Source: Patescibacteria group bacterium
GTDB taxonomy: Bacteria > Patescibacteriota > Patescibacteriia > UBA2591 > JABMQE01
DNA length: 37,482 nt
Reading direction: 5' to 3'
Assembly (NCBI GenBank): GCA_018896645.1
Contig: JAHIMF010000085.1
Location: 1-37,482 of the forward strand
In this document: piece after piece, positions 5,429-12,026 of the stretch
Layout of the letters: the number at the start of each line of letters is the position of its first letter
How positions within the stretch are numbered: the first letter of the stretch is position 1
The notes under the pieces: model-generated
What the model saw: the letters and a program-made list of their open reading frames with translations, nothing else
What the model was told of the DNA's origin: nothing
Database searches by the model: none
Program-made: the position numbers and the translations under genes

Positions 5429-5494
5429 ATGAAAAACATATTTAAACAATTAGATCTAGTATTGGTAATTTTGGTACTTTTACTCGTCGTCTAA
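5429..5494 (+). CDS. Leader peptide, Leu/Val-rich (21 aa)
   Basis: ATG AAA AAC... to TAA at 5492-5494. From residue 8 on the peptide reads LDLVLVILVLLLVV. It has seven Leu (spread over TTA, CTA, TTG, CTT and CTC codons), five Val and two Ile in 21 residues. No SD precedes it. It lies between a strong promoter and a terminator with a competing antiterminator, as leader peptides of leu and ilv operons do. A ribosome stalled at the Leu/Val codons would cover the 5' arm (region 1). Confidence 0.85.
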   Translation: MKNIFKQLDLVLVILVLLLVV

Positions 5495-5571
5495 CGCGGC
5501 TAGATCTTATGTTTAAATAAAAAATAGAAAAATTTGCAGAGTACATAGAGATCTAGCCCCAAGGGCTAGAT
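5438..5571 (+). promoter_or_regulatory. Leu/Val transcription attenuator (regions 1 to 4)
   Basis: Region 1 (5438-5459, inside the leader) pairs with region 2 through AGATCTAG/CTAGATCT plus ATTTAAAC/GTTTAAAT. Region 2, GGCTAGATCT (5498-5507), pairs perfectly with region 3, AGATCTAGCC (5549-5558). Region 3, ATCTAGCCC, pairs with region 4, GGGCTAGAT (5563-5571), before a T-run. These are the mutually exclusive folds of ribosome-mediated attenuation: Leu or Val starvation should favour 2:3 and read-through. The first gene downstream is tRNA-Val, then an unidentified RNA, then leuA. Confidence 0.8.
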
Positions 5572-5576
5572 TTTTT
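5551..5576 (+). terminator. Attenuator terminator (regions 3:4)
   Basis: A perfect 9-bp stem ATCTAGCCC/GGGCTAGAT with a three-base loop CAA, followed by six T. Confidence 0.9.
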
Positions 5577-5593
5577 GCTTTTTAGTAGGCGAA

Positions 5594-5670: not shown

Positions 5671-5745
5671 GGGTGATTAGCTCAAATGGCTTAGAGCATC
5701 GGAATTACAATCCGAGGGTCCCTGGTTCAAATCCAGGATCACCCA
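5671..5745 (+). tRNA. tRNA-Val(UAC)
   Basis: Full cloverleaf: acceptor GGGTGAT/ATCACCC, D-stem GCTC/GAGC, anticodon stem TCGGA/TCCGA with loop ATTACAA (anticodon TAC), T-arm CCTGG-TTCAAAT-CCAGG and discriminator A. CCA is not encoded. It lies about 95 bases downstream of the Leu/Val attenuator terminator, with no clear promoter of its own, so its expression may depend on read-through. Confidence 0.95.
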
Positions 5746-6032
5746 CTTTCAATAGTTCTTTAGAAGAAGAATCGCGCAAGTATCAGGAGGAAACCTACGA
5801 CGGCTGACAGGCAAAACTGACCCATCATAGTCAGCGGCGCTTTCAAGGGGCACATCATACCCCAAGATTATCCGTAAACCCCGTACCAAAAGGTCCAACC
5901 TATTTTTAGGGCTGTGCCTTACCGTTTTGGTACGGGGTAAAGAGGTGAAGACCAGAAGTCAACAGAGAGGACGAAGAGCTTCGGATTCACTACGGGCTCC
6001 CCCTTTCTGATCCTCTTGATGCTTGCGCTTGC

Positions 6033-6079
6033 GGGGTCGGTGGAGAAATTTACTTCATCGGCCCCACCCCTTATTTTTT
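6033..6079 (+). terminator. Strong terminator ending the structured RNA
   Basis: A 13-bp stem pairs GGGGTCGGTGGAG with CTTCATCGGCCCC around a 7-base loop, with four G-U pairs. It is followed by ACCCC and a T-rich run at 6071-6079. Confidence 0.8.
6049..6077 (+). promoter_or_regulatory. Possible promoter of the leuA leader, inside the terminator
   Basis: TTTACT (6049-6054) and TATTTT (6072-6077) are 17 bp apart. The leader ATG follows six bases after the -10, exactly as in the cimA leader. Both hexamers are weak, and the T-run of the preceding terminator supplies the -10. Confidence 0.35.
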
Positions 6080-6083
6080 GATT

Positions 6084-6164
6084 ATGTTTCAGAACATTCA
6101 AAATCCAAATACTCAAAATAGCTTATTATCAATAGGTCTGCTTTTGCTAATTTTTTTGGGCTAG
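6084..6164 (+). CDS. Probable leuA leader peptide, Leu-rich (26 aa)
   Basis: An ATG at 6084 gives a 26-residue peptide whose second half reads SLLSIGLLLLIFLG: seven Leu, against none in the first half. There is no SD. Its stop codon TAG (6162-6164) lies within region 2 of the candidate attenuator. The position, Leu content and a terminator 79 bases before leuA fit a leader peptide. A small membrane peptide is the alternative. Confidence 0.5.
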   Translation: MFQNIQNPNTQNSLLSIGLLLLIFLG

Positions 6165-6299: not shown

Positions 6300-7829
6300 A
6301 TGGTTACTGAAAAAGTCTATGTATTTGACACTAGCCTAAGAGACGGCGAACAGGCCGCTGGCAGTCGGTTGGGTGCCAGAGAGAAGTTGGGTATTGCCCA
6401 GCAGTTAGCTCGTTTGAGAGTTGACATCATTGAAGCTGGCTTTCCTGTTTCTTCACCTGGAGAATTTGAAGCGGTGCGGTTGATTGCTCAAAAAGTAGAA
6501 GGGCCTGTTATCTGCGCTTTGGCTAGGGCGTTGCCGGATGACATCATTAGAGCGGCTGACGCGGTTAGAAATGCATATAGCCCCCGTATCCACACTTTCA
6601 TTGGCACTTCTCCCCAGCATATGGATATGTTAAAGAGGCCGCCGCATGCCATTTTGGGAATGGCAGTTGAATCTGTGGAGCGAGCAAGGTCGTTCTGTGA
6701 GGATGTAGAATTTTCTCCAATGGATGCCACGCGCACCGAGTTTGATTATCTTTGCGAGGTAATTGAGGCCGCAATCGGGGCCGGGGCAACAATTATTAAT
6801 ATTCCTGATACAGTTGGCTATGCCCAACCCCAGCAATTTGGCGCCTTAATAAAAGACATTTTGAGGAACATTTCCAATATCCAAGGAATCGTCTTAAGCG
6901 TTCATTGCCATAATGATTTGGGTTTGGCGGTAGCTAACACCTTGGCCGCTGTTGATAATGGGGCGCGCCAGGTGGAGTGCACCATCAATGGCATTGGCGA
7001 GCGCGCCGGGAACGCCGCTTTGGAAGAGGTGGTTATGGCCATACGGACTCGGCGGGATTATTATTCTGATGTGGCTACTGGCATTGATACTCGCGAAATT
7101 GTTAGGGCCAGTCGTTTGGTAGCTGATGCTTTTGGTATGATTGTCCCCGCAAATAAGGCAATTGTTGGTGCTAATGCTTTTGCCCATAGTTCTGGCATTC
7201 ACCAGGATGGTTTCCTAAAGAATCCTGAAACTTTTGAGATTATAAAGCCAGAAGATGTGGGTCTGGATGCGAGTAAAATTGTACTGACCGCCCGGTCAGG
7301 CCGCCATGCTCTGCAACATCGATTAGAACAGCTGGGTTACTATCTCTCTGATGAGGAGTTGGGGGGATTCTACGAAACGCAGTTTTTACCTCTATCTGAT
7401 AAAAAGAAAGAGGTTTATGACGAGGACCTAATAGCGATGATGGGTGATGAGATGCAGGATATTTCGGAAACTTATCACCTAAAATATTTGCATACCTCTG
7501 GTGGCACTGGCGCAATTCCGACAGCTACCGTCCAGATTCAAATCAGAGATGAAGTTAGACAAAAGGCTGAGTGCGGCGATGGTCCAGTGGATGCGACTTT
7601 TAAGGCCATCCAGGCGGTTGTCAATCTGCCGACTACTCTGCAGCAATATGCAATCAGGTCAGTGACCAGTGGTACCGAAGCCATGGGTGAGGTTACGGTC
7701 CATTTAAAGGAAGACGGTAATGTAGTGATTGGTCGCGGCGTTTCCACGGACATTATTGAGGCCAGCGCTAAGGCCTACATAGATGGATTAAACAAACTAG
7801 CCGTTCGCAAGAAGGCGAGTGTTGAGTAA
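6300..7829 (+). CDS. leuA: 2-isopropylmalate synthase
   Basis: 509 aa. It condenses acetyl-CoA with 2-ketoisovalerate, the committed step of leucine synthesis. The HMGL-like TIM barrel opens with [13 protein letters not shown], the metal site HCHNDLG is at about residue 201, and [14 protein letters not shown] follows. The C-terminal part from about residue 390 ([25 protein letters not shown]) is the LeuA allosteric domain that usually binds leucine. Thus both feedback and attenuation may act on it. The SD AAAGGAGG is perfectly placed. No leuB, leuC or leuD is in the window. It is closed by a terminator at 7837. Confidence 0.95.
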
Positions 7830-7988: not shown

Positions 7989-8017
7989 TTGACAAAATTT
8001 TTTACATAGCATATTAT
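7989..8017 (+). promoter_or_regulatory. Promoter of the cimA attenuator
   Basis: -35 TTGACA and -10 TATTAT with a 17-bp spacer. The predicted start at about 8024 coincides with the first base of the leader ATG, which would make the transcript truly leaderless. The preceding spacer 7873-7988 holds nothing else that I can support. Confidence 0.85.
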
Positions 8018-8023
8018 TAAACT

Positions 8024-8098
8024 ATGAATGAAACCTTCCAGGCAATTAGAATTATTAACATTATTATTAGCCGCTTAAGACGAGTGGAAGGCCTTTAA
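8024..8098 (+). CDS. Leader peptide, Ile-rich frame (24 aa)
   Basis: From the ATG at 8024 the core reads AIRIINIIISR: six Ile, all ATT codons, in ten positions. The stop is at 8096-8098, beyond region 2, so a terminating ribosome would mask region 2 and allow the terminator, as the model needs. Isoleucine is the end product of the citramalate route encoded downstream. An overlapping Leu-rich frame exists at 8028-8078. Confidence 0.7.
   Translation: MNETFQAIRIINIIISRLRRVEGL
8028..8078 (+). CDS. Alternative overlapping leader peptide, Leu-rich (16 aa)
   Basis: A second ATG, in another frame four bases downstream of the first, gives MKPSRQLELLTLLLAA with six Leu, all TTA, read from the same nucleotides that give Ile in the first frame. 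Its stop at 8076-8078 sits just before region 2 (8082). Which frame is translated, or whether both are, cannot be decided from sequence alone. Confidence 0.45.
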   Translation: MKPSRQLELLTLLLAA

Positions 8099-8165
8099 TT
8101 AACAACAGCTCAATTAAATAATTTAAAAAGTTGACTGCCTTCCACTCTTGGGAGGCAGTTTTTTG
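8034..8165 (+). terminator. cimA attenuator with terminator at 8134-8165
   Basis: Region 1 CCTTCCA (8034-8040) pairs with TGGAAGG (8085-8091). Region 2 GAGTGGAAGGC (8082-8092) pairs perfectly over 11 bp with region 3 GCCTTCCACTC (8137-8147). Region 3 ACTGCCTTCC (8134-8143) pairs with region 4 GGGAGGCAGT (8150-8159) with one G-U, followed by TTTTTT. This is a textbook set of alternative hairpins, 30 bases before the cimA start. Confidence 0.88.
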
Positions 8166-8194
8166 TTCTTTATGCTATTATAGGAGAAAGAGCT

Positions 8195-9793
8195 ATGGTT
8201 ACAATTTTTGACACAACCTTAAGAGACGGGTCTCAAGCCGAAGGCATCTCATTTTCAGTTGAGGACAAGCTGGCGATTGCTAAACGATTAGACGACCTTG
8301 GCGTGCATTACATCGAGGGCGGCTGGCCCAACCCAACTAATCCCAAGGATCTGGAGTTTTTTGTTCGTGTTAAAGAGTTGGGTTTGAAAAACGCGAAAGC
8401 CACTGCTTTTGGCAGTACTCGGCGGGCCAAGAACACACCGGAAAAAGATCCGATTCTCCAGACTTTGCTCAAAGCCAAAACCCAAACAATCGCTCTATTT
8501 GGCAAAAGCTGGGATTTGCATGTTTGGGAGGTGTTAAGGCTTAAGGGGCCGGAGGGGCTAGAGACAAATCTGCATATGATCAGAGATTCCGTAGCTTTTT
8601 TGCGATCAGCGGGGCGGGAAGTTATTTATGATGCCGAGCACTTTTTTGATGGCTACAAAGCAAACCCAGTTTATGCCCTCCGGACATTGGAAGCGGCCCT
8701 GAAAGGCGGGGCAAGCATCCTTGTTTTATGTGATACTAATGGCGGTTGTCTGCCTGGCGAGATTAGGCCGATTATCGCAGATGTGTTTAAACATTTTGGG
8801 GATACTCCCATCGGTATCCATACCCATAATGACAGTGGCTGTGCCGAAGCTAATATTTTCGAAGCAGTAAGGCTGGGTGTTTGTCATGTTCAGGGGACTA
8901 TTAATGGCTATGGAGAACGGTGTGGAAATGCAAACCTTTGCACTGTAATCCCAACCCTAAAACTCAAGATGGGCATAGATTGTATTAGCAGAGAAGGATT
9001 AGAGGATCTAACAGAACTCTCTCACTTTGTGAGCGAGATTGCTAATGTGGCGCCTGATCATCGCCAACCCTATGTGGGCGCCAGCGCTTTTGCCCACAAA
9101 GGAGGCGCCCACGCAGATGGGGTAGTCAAAAATTCTCGTTCCTTTGAACATATTGAGCCGGAACTGGTAGGCAATGAACGGCGCTTTTTAGCTTCGGACC
9201 AAGCAGGCACGGCGCTTGTTGCTAAATATTTAGAGCAGTTTGGGTATGTTGTTGATAAAAAGGATGAACGTGTTGTCAGTCTGTTGACCGAGTTAAAGCA
9301 ACGGGAAGCCCATGGTTATGCCTATGAAGCCGCTGACGGTTCTTTTGAGCTTTTAGCTCGGCGGGTGATGGGCGATTACACCCAACCTTTTAAGACCATT
9401 GCTTTTCGGGCAGAAGTGGGTCAATATGAAAATGACCAGCTATCCTCCGAGGCTATTGTTGAGGTGAGCGTGGATGGCCGGCAGGAGCATACCGTAGCCA
9501 AGGGGGATGGCCCCATCCATGCCCTGGACAATGCGCTCCGAAAGGCGTTAGAGAAGTTTTATCCCCAACTTAAAGAAGTGTATCTTAGAGATTATAAAGT
9601 GCGCGTGTTGTCTAATAGCAACGATGATGGAACCGCGGCGACTGTGCGGGTGTTGATTGAATCTTCGGATGGTAAAAGGGTTTGGAGCACAGTCGGAGCC
9701 TCGGAAAATATTATTGAGGCTAGTTGGGAGGCGTTAGTAGATAGTTTTAGCTATAAGTTGCTGAAAGACAGGCCACCAGCTCAAGCGGTCTAA
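8195..9793 (+). CDS. cimA: (R)-citramalate synthase
   Basis: 532 aa. It makes citramalate from pyruvate and acetyl-CoA, the threonine-independent entry to isoleucine. DTTLRDGSQAEGISFS and DDLGVHYIEGGWP are typical of the CimA branch rather than LeuA. The metal motif HTHNDSGCAEAN is at about residue 207, then NGYGERCGNANL. The C-terminal LeuA-type regulatory domain starts near residue 395 (AEVGQYENDQLSSEA, KGDGPIHALDNAL). The SD is AGGAGA. It sits directly behind the Ile/Leu attenuator and ahead of a terminator, so it is a single-gene operon. Confidence 0.93.
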   Translation: MVTIFDTTLRDGSQAEGISFSVEDKLAIAKRLDDLGVHYIEGGWPNPTNPKDLEFFVRVKELGLKNAKATAFGSTRRAKNTPEKDPILQTLLKAKTQTIALFGKSWDLHVWEVLRLKGPEGLETNLHMIRDSVAFLRSAGREVIYDAEHFFDGYKANPVYALRTLEAALKGGASILVLCDTNGGCLPGEIRPIIADVFKHFGDTPIGIHTHNDSGCAEANIFEAVRLGVCHVQGTINGYGERCGNANLCTVIPTLKLKMGIDCISREGLEDLTELSHFVSEIANVAPDHRQPYVGASAFAHKGGAHADGVVKNSRSFEHIEPELVGNERRFLASDQAGTALVAKYLEQFGYVVDKKDERVVSLLTELKQREAHGYAYEAADGSFELLARRVMGDYTQPFKTIAFRAEVGQYENDQLSSEAIVEVSVDGRQEHTVAKGDGPIHALDNALRKALEKFYPQLKEVYLRDYKVRVLSNSNDDGTAATVRVLIESSDGKRVWSTVGASENIIEASWEALVDSFSYKLLKDRPPAQAV

Positions 9794-9940: not shown

Positions 9941-10012
9941 ATGAAAATTAGCCAATGGTACAACTTTTATTTCTTTTTTACTGATTCGGATCGGCTGATT
10001 TTATATATATAA
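9941..10012 (+). CDS. Leader peptide, Trp/Tyr/Phe-rich (23 aa)
   Basis: Residues 6-13 read WYNFYFFF: one Trp, two Tyr and four Phe in eight positions, plus a further Tyr near the end. No SD is seen. The composition resembles a PheL-type leader more than a tryptophan leader. It lies between a strong promoter and alternative hairpins. Confidence 0.85.
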   Translation: MKISQWYNFYFFFTDSDRLILYI

Positions 10013-10078
10013 ATAAATAAGATTTGTAGATAAAAAAAACAGCCGATTCACAAGAGAATCGGTTTTTTATTTTTTTAA
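9944..10078 (+). terminator. Aromatic attenuator with terminator at 10043-10078
   Basis: Region 1 AAAATTAGCC (9944-9953) pairs over ten positions with GGCTGATTTT (9993-10002). Region 2 GGATCGGCTG (9988-9997) pairs over ten positions (one G-U) with region 3 CAGCCGATTC (10040-10049). Region 3 CCGATTC pairs with region 4 GAATCGG (10056-10062), then two T-runs. Phe, Tyr or Trp shortage should favour read-through. Confidence 0.88.
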
Positions 10079-10894: not shown

Positions 10895-11455
10895 TTATTT
10901 TTTCACTGCCAGAAATGAGGTATAATTAAATTTCAAATCCTGAATCCCCTTTTCTAAAATTTCCAAATTATAAAGTTTTGCGCAGGATTCTGGAGCAATG
11001 ACTGCGGTCGTAGCGGACAGGACTTTGTTTTTTAGATCTTCAGCCGCATGCGCTGTATCATCGCGTTCTTCCAGCCCTGCTTTTGGCCAGATTCTTTTTA
11101 GATACATTTTACATTGTTTGATAGCTTGGGGATGGGAGGCGATTTTGGCGATAGTTTCTTTTTTAGTTCCAGGAGCCACGAGCAAGCAGTGAATCACCGG
11201 AATCTCAAAAATATTTTTGATGTTAAAGATGTGTTTGCTCATAGCATAAATGGCTTCAAGCACGACTCCCCCATTGGAGTTTTCAATTGGAAAAATACCA
11301 AGGTCAATTTTGCCTTGGTTAAGTGTTGTAAGCACATTTTCCGCGGAAATCAGATATTCCAGCCGGAAATCGCTTATATTGTTTGTTCTGACGTATTCTC
11401 GGGCCGCTTGCTCGGAAAAACTGCCGCGAGCGCCGGAAATGCCGATAATAGTCAT
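10895..11455 (-). CDS. pheA: Prephenate dehydratase-like protein, catalytic domain only
   Basis: 186 aa on the minus strand. Family signatures in order: GARGSFSEQAA (N-terminal), FPIENSNGGVV, SHPQAIKQC, TAVIAPESCAKLYNL. The family converts prephenate to phenylpyruvate. Two deviations: the C-terminal ACT domain that senses Phe is missing, and the conserved TRF motif near the end reads TSF (residues 179-181; Ser codon at 10918-10916). In E. coli P-protein that Thr is catalytically important, and the adjacent Arg is normally conserved. Activity is therefore uncertain. No clear SD. Confidence 0.8.
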   Translation of the reverse strand: MTIIGISGARGSFSEQAAREYVRTNNISDFRLEYLISAENVLTTLNQGKIDLGIFPIENSNGGVVLEAIYAMSKHIFNIKNIFEIPVIHCLLVAPGTKKETIAKIASHPQAIKQCKMYLKRIWPKAGLEERDDTAHAAEDLKNKVLSATTAVIAPESCAKLYNLEILEKGIQDLKFNYTSFLAVKK

Positions 11456-11851: not shown

Positions 11852-11893
11852 GCGGGGTATGGCGCAGTTGGTAGCGCGCACGCATGGCCCCGC
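11852..11893 (+). pseudogene. Truncated tRNA-Pro copy (5' half)
   Basis: Positions 11862-11887 are identical over 26 bases to 11911-11936 of the intact tRNA-Pro, covering the D-arm and the 5' side of the anticodon arm. The copy then runs into CCCCGC, which pairs with GCGGGG at 11852-11857. No 3' half exists. It may be a failed duplication, an assembly artefact, or an element that alters folding of the precursor. Confidence 0.6.
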
Positions 11894-11901
11894 ACCTTTT
11901 T

Positions 11902-11974
11902 CGGGGATTAGCGCAGTTGGTAGCGCGCACGCATGGGGTGCGTGAGGTCAGGAGTTCGAGTCTCCTATCCCCGA
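11902..11974 (+). tRNA. tRNA-Pro(GGG)
   Basis: Acceptor CGGGGAT/ATCCCCG, with the C1-G72 pair typical of bacterial tRNA-Pro. D-stem GCGC/GCGC, anticodon stem CACGC/GCGTG with loop ATGGGGT (anticodon GGG), T-arm AGGAG-TTCGAGT-CTCCT, discriminator A. CCA is not encoded. A perfect 12-base inverted repeat flanks the mature ends: CCCCGCACCTTT at 11888-11899 and AAAGGTGCGGGG at 11976-11987. Confidence 0.95.
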
Positions 11975-12026
11975 CAAAGGTGCGGGGTAAAGGTGTGTGA
12001 CCCCGATCAACAAAACAAGAAGACCG

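Follow-up and report, generated by a model that had tools for sequence, protein, structure and literature searches.

The window, that is, the whole stretch of 37,482 nucleotides under analysis, corresponds to contig C85 in a genome of 1.33 Mb and 92 contigs. A gene for ribosomal protein uL30 was not detectable in this genome, which, taken with the genome size, is consistent with a placement in the CPR/Patescibacteria. On its forward strand lies cimA (8195–9793), encoding an (R)-citramalate synthase of 532 amino acids (TIGR00977 match with 729.5 bits against a cut-off of 450), an enzyme whose product is a precursor of isoleucine. The gene has a Shine-Dalgarno sequence, AGGAG, at 8182–8186 of the same strand, and leuA (6300–7829) is located upstream. 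Distribution of cimA across the phylum is patchy: it occurs in 11 of the 383 genomes of the class sample and in 10 of the 381 genomes of the phylum sample (the source genome being counted in both), with more cases in the order of genome G250, beyond the two samples. No further cimA was found in the family or order of the source genome itself, nor in the order of genome G164.

Leader anatomy and RNA folding

The interval between leuA and cimA carries a sigma-70-type promoter on the forward strand, TTGACA-N17-TATTAT (7989–8017), which agrees with the consensus in 11 of 12 positions. It is followed by two ATGs, at 8024 and 8028, that open different reading frames across the same bases, as the initial annotation had described. 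The frame starting at 8024 (8024–8098, forward strand) specifies the peptide MNETFQAIRIINIIISRLRRVEGL, including a run of six ATT codons for isoleucine (8045–8068), and ends with the TAA at 8096–8098. The overlapping +1 frame (8028–8078, forward strand), MKPSRQLELLTLLLAA, reads six TTA codons for leucine and ends with the TAA at 8076–8078.

Four RNA segments, all on the same strand, can be recognised in and behind these frames. Region 1 (CCTTCCA; 8034–8040) may pair with region 2 when the leader is free of ribosomes. Region 2 (GAGTGGAAGGC; 8082–8092) is the 5′ arm of an antiterminator, the 3′ arm of which is region 3 (GCCTTCCACTC; 8137–8147); the complementarity of the two is perfect over 11 bp, again as noticed at the outset. 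Region 3 is also part of the 5′ arm of an intrinsic terminator, made up of the 3:4 hairpin (8133–8160) and a T-run extending to 8164, so that antiterminator and terminator are mutually exclusive.

The 2:3 duplex has a predicted energy of −21 to −22 kcal/mol, equalled by none of 500 and none of 300 shuffled sequences in two series, while the 1:2 duplex (−13.7 kcal/mol) was equalled in 13 of 300 shuffles. Two terminator-like sites were found against 0.3 expected in shuffles, and the folding of the whole leader has a z-score of −3.0. We simulated folding with the part of the RNA covered by the ribosome removed: when the ribosome is held up at the Ile codons, the 2:3 antiterminator forms (−23.5 kcal/mol), and when it stands at the 8096 stop, the terminator forms (−19.3 kcal/mol). 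The Leu-frame stop at 8076 likewise permits the terminator. The early observation that both stops are compatible with attenuation is thus borne out, and since both allow the terminator, the anatomy alone does not choose between the frames. Searches against Rfam yielded nothing above threshold at 7989–8194 (the best hit was sau-41, with 22.9 bits against a gathering score of 80), and relaxed thresholds did not bring up a family at this locus either.

From the promoter at 7989–8017 and the usual spacing of 6–8 bases to the start point, transcription is expected to start at about 8024; the predicted range (8023–8025) places it at, or one to two bases from, the Ile-frame ATG. Neither of the two ATGs is preceded by a Shine-Dalgarno sequence. 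As the predicted transcript start coincides with ATG 8024 and neither start has a Shine-Dalgarno sequence, the 5′-proximal ATG of the Ile frame should be favoured over the one at 8028. Across the genome, the gaps between −10 element and ATG, at sites where a promoter is followed by an ATG, peak at 6–7 and at 9, which is suggestive of leaderless starts, although the peaks are not sharp enough for proof.

Isoleucine leaders in other genomes of the phylum

We compared the cimA leader with the upstream regions of 23 cimA-like loci from other genomes of the phylum. A leader ORF with four to 12 Ile codons is present at 16 of them, making 17 leaders with the one described here; nine neighbouring cimA-like genes were checked, all of which have TIGR00977 as their best match. 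The peptides are MTSTRNIIISIIITPFASGWLLVR (L083), MNIFKGITILLSIILIAIISEFSPCL (L084), MNLFQSAKIISIIEIIIIDDHFCAL (L085), MTFAKNIIISISIISQPTGGSLSTV (L087), MKKTFTNNIIIGIIIISQPRGGSFLSS (L088), MNIYPAIAIIINIIIPVMNGRLLNS (L089), MNKVFQSIIIAIIIPAYSMEDFII (L090), MHLTRTNIINIIIIQSLSGKC (L091), MKKGFQNIIISIIIPVVWEGFGVS (L092), MASHQIISSIIITPLRKA (L127), MTSCQITSSIIITSTQKA (L128), MQSLHSIIGRIIIRRSGVRG (L131), MNILRRIQKIIISIIAIIINGNFLYPWQA (L161), MKLEKAIQIIIIQIIIINDHFVFPLKT (L162), MSLIQSIIIIIAIIGIIIIGNRSYYALKAKLK (L163) and MNLAQSTIIIIGIIGIIIIDNQFYCALKTKSE (L164). The 17 leaders are not independent samples, yet many families are represented among them, and apart from the Ile run the peptides vary greatly. 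Upstream of the cimA-like genes at the remaining seven loci (L086, L123–L126, L129 and L130), we found no leader.

The Ile frame, with its start, codon run and stop, is kept in all 17 leaders, which supports the expectation that isoleucine is the amino acid sensed at cimA. By contrast, the initial annotation had suggested that the overlapping Leu frame could provide a second input, and it had proposed aligning orthologous leaders to see which frame is retained. In that comparison only the Ile frame proved to be conserved, the very outcome that the annotation had named as a refutation, and a second input found no support: 15 of the 17 leaders use ATC or ATA codons, by which Ile is kept and the Leu of the shifted frame is lost, the +1 frame is interrupted by stops at L084, L162, L163 and L164, and an ATG that opens the +1 frame through the run exists solely in the leader of the source genome.

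The RNA elements recur to varying extents. In 13 leaders, the 2:3 complementarity was matched by no more than 0–6 of 300 shuffles; at L127 it is weaker (20 of 500). The 1:2 helix is strong at L084, L085, L087 and L090, weak at L083, L089 and L127, and no better than shuffles in several relatives. With the ribosome at the stop codon, a terminator-like hairpin formed in all 10 leaders modelled. With the ribosome stalled, equilibrium folding still favoured the terminator at L083, L087, L088, L090 and L092, so that these five would depend on kinetics or on the choice of the stalled codon. A simple scan missed the terminator at L127, L128, L131 and L161, where candidate hairpins are visible by eye.

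Shine-Dalgarno sequences are absent ahead of all 17 leader ATGs but present ahead of 13 of the 17 cimA-like genes downstream. The gap between the −10 element and the ATG measures six bases in the source genome; where a promoter can be recognised in a relative, it mostly spans 7 to 19. Given this variation, the cimA leaders are best described as leaderless or having a very short 5′ UTR. The leader ORFs appear to begin at the predicted RNA 5′ end or not far from it, and to be translated independently of a Shine-Dalgarno sequence.

Outside the phylum, 80 named cimA loci showed no convincing Ile leader upstream. Matches to ISTSEIKIS... at some of these loci were discarded as leaders, as they seem to be the terminal part of an adjacent conserved gene. 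Long non-coding stretches occur upstream of the cimA-like genes at L125, L129 and L130; L125 and L129 have the blocks GGTGCAAATTGGCGG and CCGGCTTCCCCC in common, and none of the three stretches has a match in Rfam.

Probable attenuation of cimA and the overlapping leucine frame

Promoter, Ile leader ORF, 2:3 helix, terminator and cimA follow each other in the order of a classical attenuator, with pairings that outdo shuffled sequences, and the proposal of a cimA attenuator made in the initial annotation is upheld. On the computed evidence for the individual elements and their conservation, for the outcomes of folding and for the frame retained, we consider it highly probable (about 0.9) that cimA is controlled by an isoleucine-sensing, ribosome-mediated transcription attenuator. 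Transcription would begin at or one to two bases from AUG 8024, as we infer from the promoter, and a ribosome would load onto the leaderless or almost leaderless RNA and translate the Ile frame. A shortage of charged tRNA-Ile would make the ribosome stall in vivo on the AUU run, where it would cover region 1 and leave region 2 free to form the 11-bp antiterminator with region 3, upon which RNA polymerase would run on into cimA. Given ample isoleucine, the ribosome would reach the stop at 8096 and cover region 2; region 3 would then pair with region 4, and transcription would end at around 8160–8164.

The presence of the second frame raises the question of whether initiation could occur at 8024 (Ile) or at 8028 (Leu), with a shortage of either amino acid opening cimA. 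The sequence does contain the two ATGs, the two codon runs and the two stops, both stop positions permit the terminator in folding, and a scatter of a few bases in the transcript start could favour either AUG. However, an ATT codon followed by an A reads as TTA one base later, and most of the +1 TTA run therefore comes free with the ATT codons. In a chance model built on the codon usage of the window, where ATT makes up 71% of the Ile codons (15 ORFs), an open +1 ATG precedes the run in 4.9% of the modelled leaders, and six or more TTA codons appear in the +1 frame in 3.7% of them, or in 19.5% if all Ile codons are ATT. At about 5% per leader, roughly one open +1 frame would be expected among 17, which is what is observed, and that the same bases can be read in two frames is in itself only mildly improbable. 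Considering also that the Leu run is broken by ATC or ATA codons or by stops in most relatives, and that a distinct Leu/Val leader exists at 5429 in the same genome, we regard a leader working in both frames, which would be a new kind of two-input sensor, as very unlikely. The same small likelihood attaches to its restricted form, in which the start at 8028 arose recently in the source lineage alone, so that leucine shortage would also open cimA there. Judging from the relatives, the +1 TTA frame is probably a by-product of the ATT codons rather than a working leader.

Two further readings deserve even less credence. The region is AT-rich and ATT is the prevailing Ile codon of the window, so the codon run might be low-complexity sequence in front of a plain terminator or fold that works without a leader peptide; this is hard to reconcile with an Ile ORF found again in the corresponding position of 16 other genomes, with differing codons and peptides, and with a 2:3 partner present wherever the scan found a terminator. 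That the leader actually responds to leucine, the Ile frame being the by-product, has next to no likelihood, open though the Leu peptide is and close as its stop lies to region 2: ATT, ATC and ATA are all used in the 17 Ile frames, preserving Ile and not Leu, the Leu frame has a start in none of the relatives, and CimA makes an isoleucine precursor. The relatives already refute it, unless the source lineage has switched.

Further leaders in the genome and known attenuators

The same genome harbours at least five sibling leaders, a lower bound since only exact TTGACA promoters were used to find them, and all five have a terminator. A Leu/Val leader, MKNIFKQLDLVLVILVLLLVV (5429–5580; terminator at 5547–5575), lies upstream of tRNA-Val(UAC) (5671–5746), which is followed by leuA. 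It holds three GTA codons, which are read by the very tRNA-Val(UAC) encoded just downstream, and charging of tRNA-Val may thus control a tRNA-Val gene. A Phe/Tyr leader, MKISQWYNFYFFFTDSDRLILYI, with antiterminator and terminator, occupies 9941–10070. Elsewhere in the genome, there are a His leader, MKNLNTTIHHHEQAQAI, before hisI-hisE-hisG (L114; G000:C36:1395), a Cys leader, MKNIFKIQSIACCCILEKISGMLCLGLK, before a cysteine synthase-cysS pair (L136; G000:C55:9739) and a probable Arg leader, with RRR, before a GNAT acetyltransferase gene (L142; G000:C69:5419). Folding with a stalled ribosome led to an alternative structure for the Phe/Tyr, His and Cys leaders, and to no clear one for the Leu/Val and Arg leaders.

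Some other elements of the window may be recorded here. The Phe/Tyr leader precedes small ORFs of unknown function, and no gene of an aromatic pathway is obvious behind it; a gene for prephenate dehydratase is situated nearby on the opposite strand (10895–11455). Between tRNA-Val and leuA, 316 nt (5770–6085) fold at −127 kcal/mol (z = −7.7) into a structure closed by a long terminal helix, after which come a second hairpin and a T-rich tract. No Rfam family matches this stretch, which may be a structured RNA that is either undescribed or strongly diverged. At 11860–11980, the tRNA-Pro(GGG) gene has in front of it an incomplete second copy of its own 5′ half (tggcgcagttggtagcgcgcacgcatgg).

Ribosome-mediated leader-peptide attenuators control ilv and leu operons in proteobacteria. 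They have also been described for ilvBNC in Corynebacterium (PMC11857589) and for ilvB in Actinobacteria (PMC1262725). Like these, the cimA leader has a short ORF with many codons for the amino acid under regulation, alternative 2:3 and 3:4 helices (with a putative 1:2 helix as a further alternative), an intrinsic terminator and a biosynthetic gene downstream. Unlike them, it controls citramalate synthase and not acetohydroxyacid synthase, its regulatory codons specify Ile only, its ORF is devoid of a Shine-Dalgarno sequence and begins on, or close to, the first base of the predicted transcript, and it sits in a phylum of small genomes. Leaderless polycysteine short ORFs act as attenuators in mycobacteria, by the accounts of citing papers (Canestrari et al. 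2020, cited in PMC9031893 and PMC13236596). By these accounts, they resemble the cimA leader as leaderless (here predicted) short ORFs with a run of a single amino acid that attenuate a biosynthetic operon, but they sense cysteine rather than isoleucine, occur in an unrelated phylum and attenuate downstream translation, whereas the intrinsic terminator at cimA points to transcription. Branched-chain synthesis in Staphylococcus aureus is likewise reported to be subject to leader-peptide attenuation (PMC5794164), the leader there being leucine-rich and belonging to a different operon.

Among the titles and abstracts retrieved in a literature search, leader-peptide attenuation was not found in Patescibacteria or before citramalate synthase. 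Ile leader-peptide attenuators in front of citramalate synthase genes in a small-genome phylum (probably CPR/Patescibacteria) apparently constitute an undescribed family: the mechanism is that of the classical leader-peptide attenuator, and what appears to be new is its place, the phylum and the citramalate synthase gene.

Bacteria of this small-genome (probably CPR) phylum are thought to have little biosynthesis to regulate. Isoleucine attenuators nevertheless precede citramalate synthase across the phylum, and a single genome holds leader versions for Ile, Leu/Val, Phe/Tyr, His, Cys and probably Arg. Such leaders could reveal, from sequence alone, which amino acids are made and sensed by uncultured cells.
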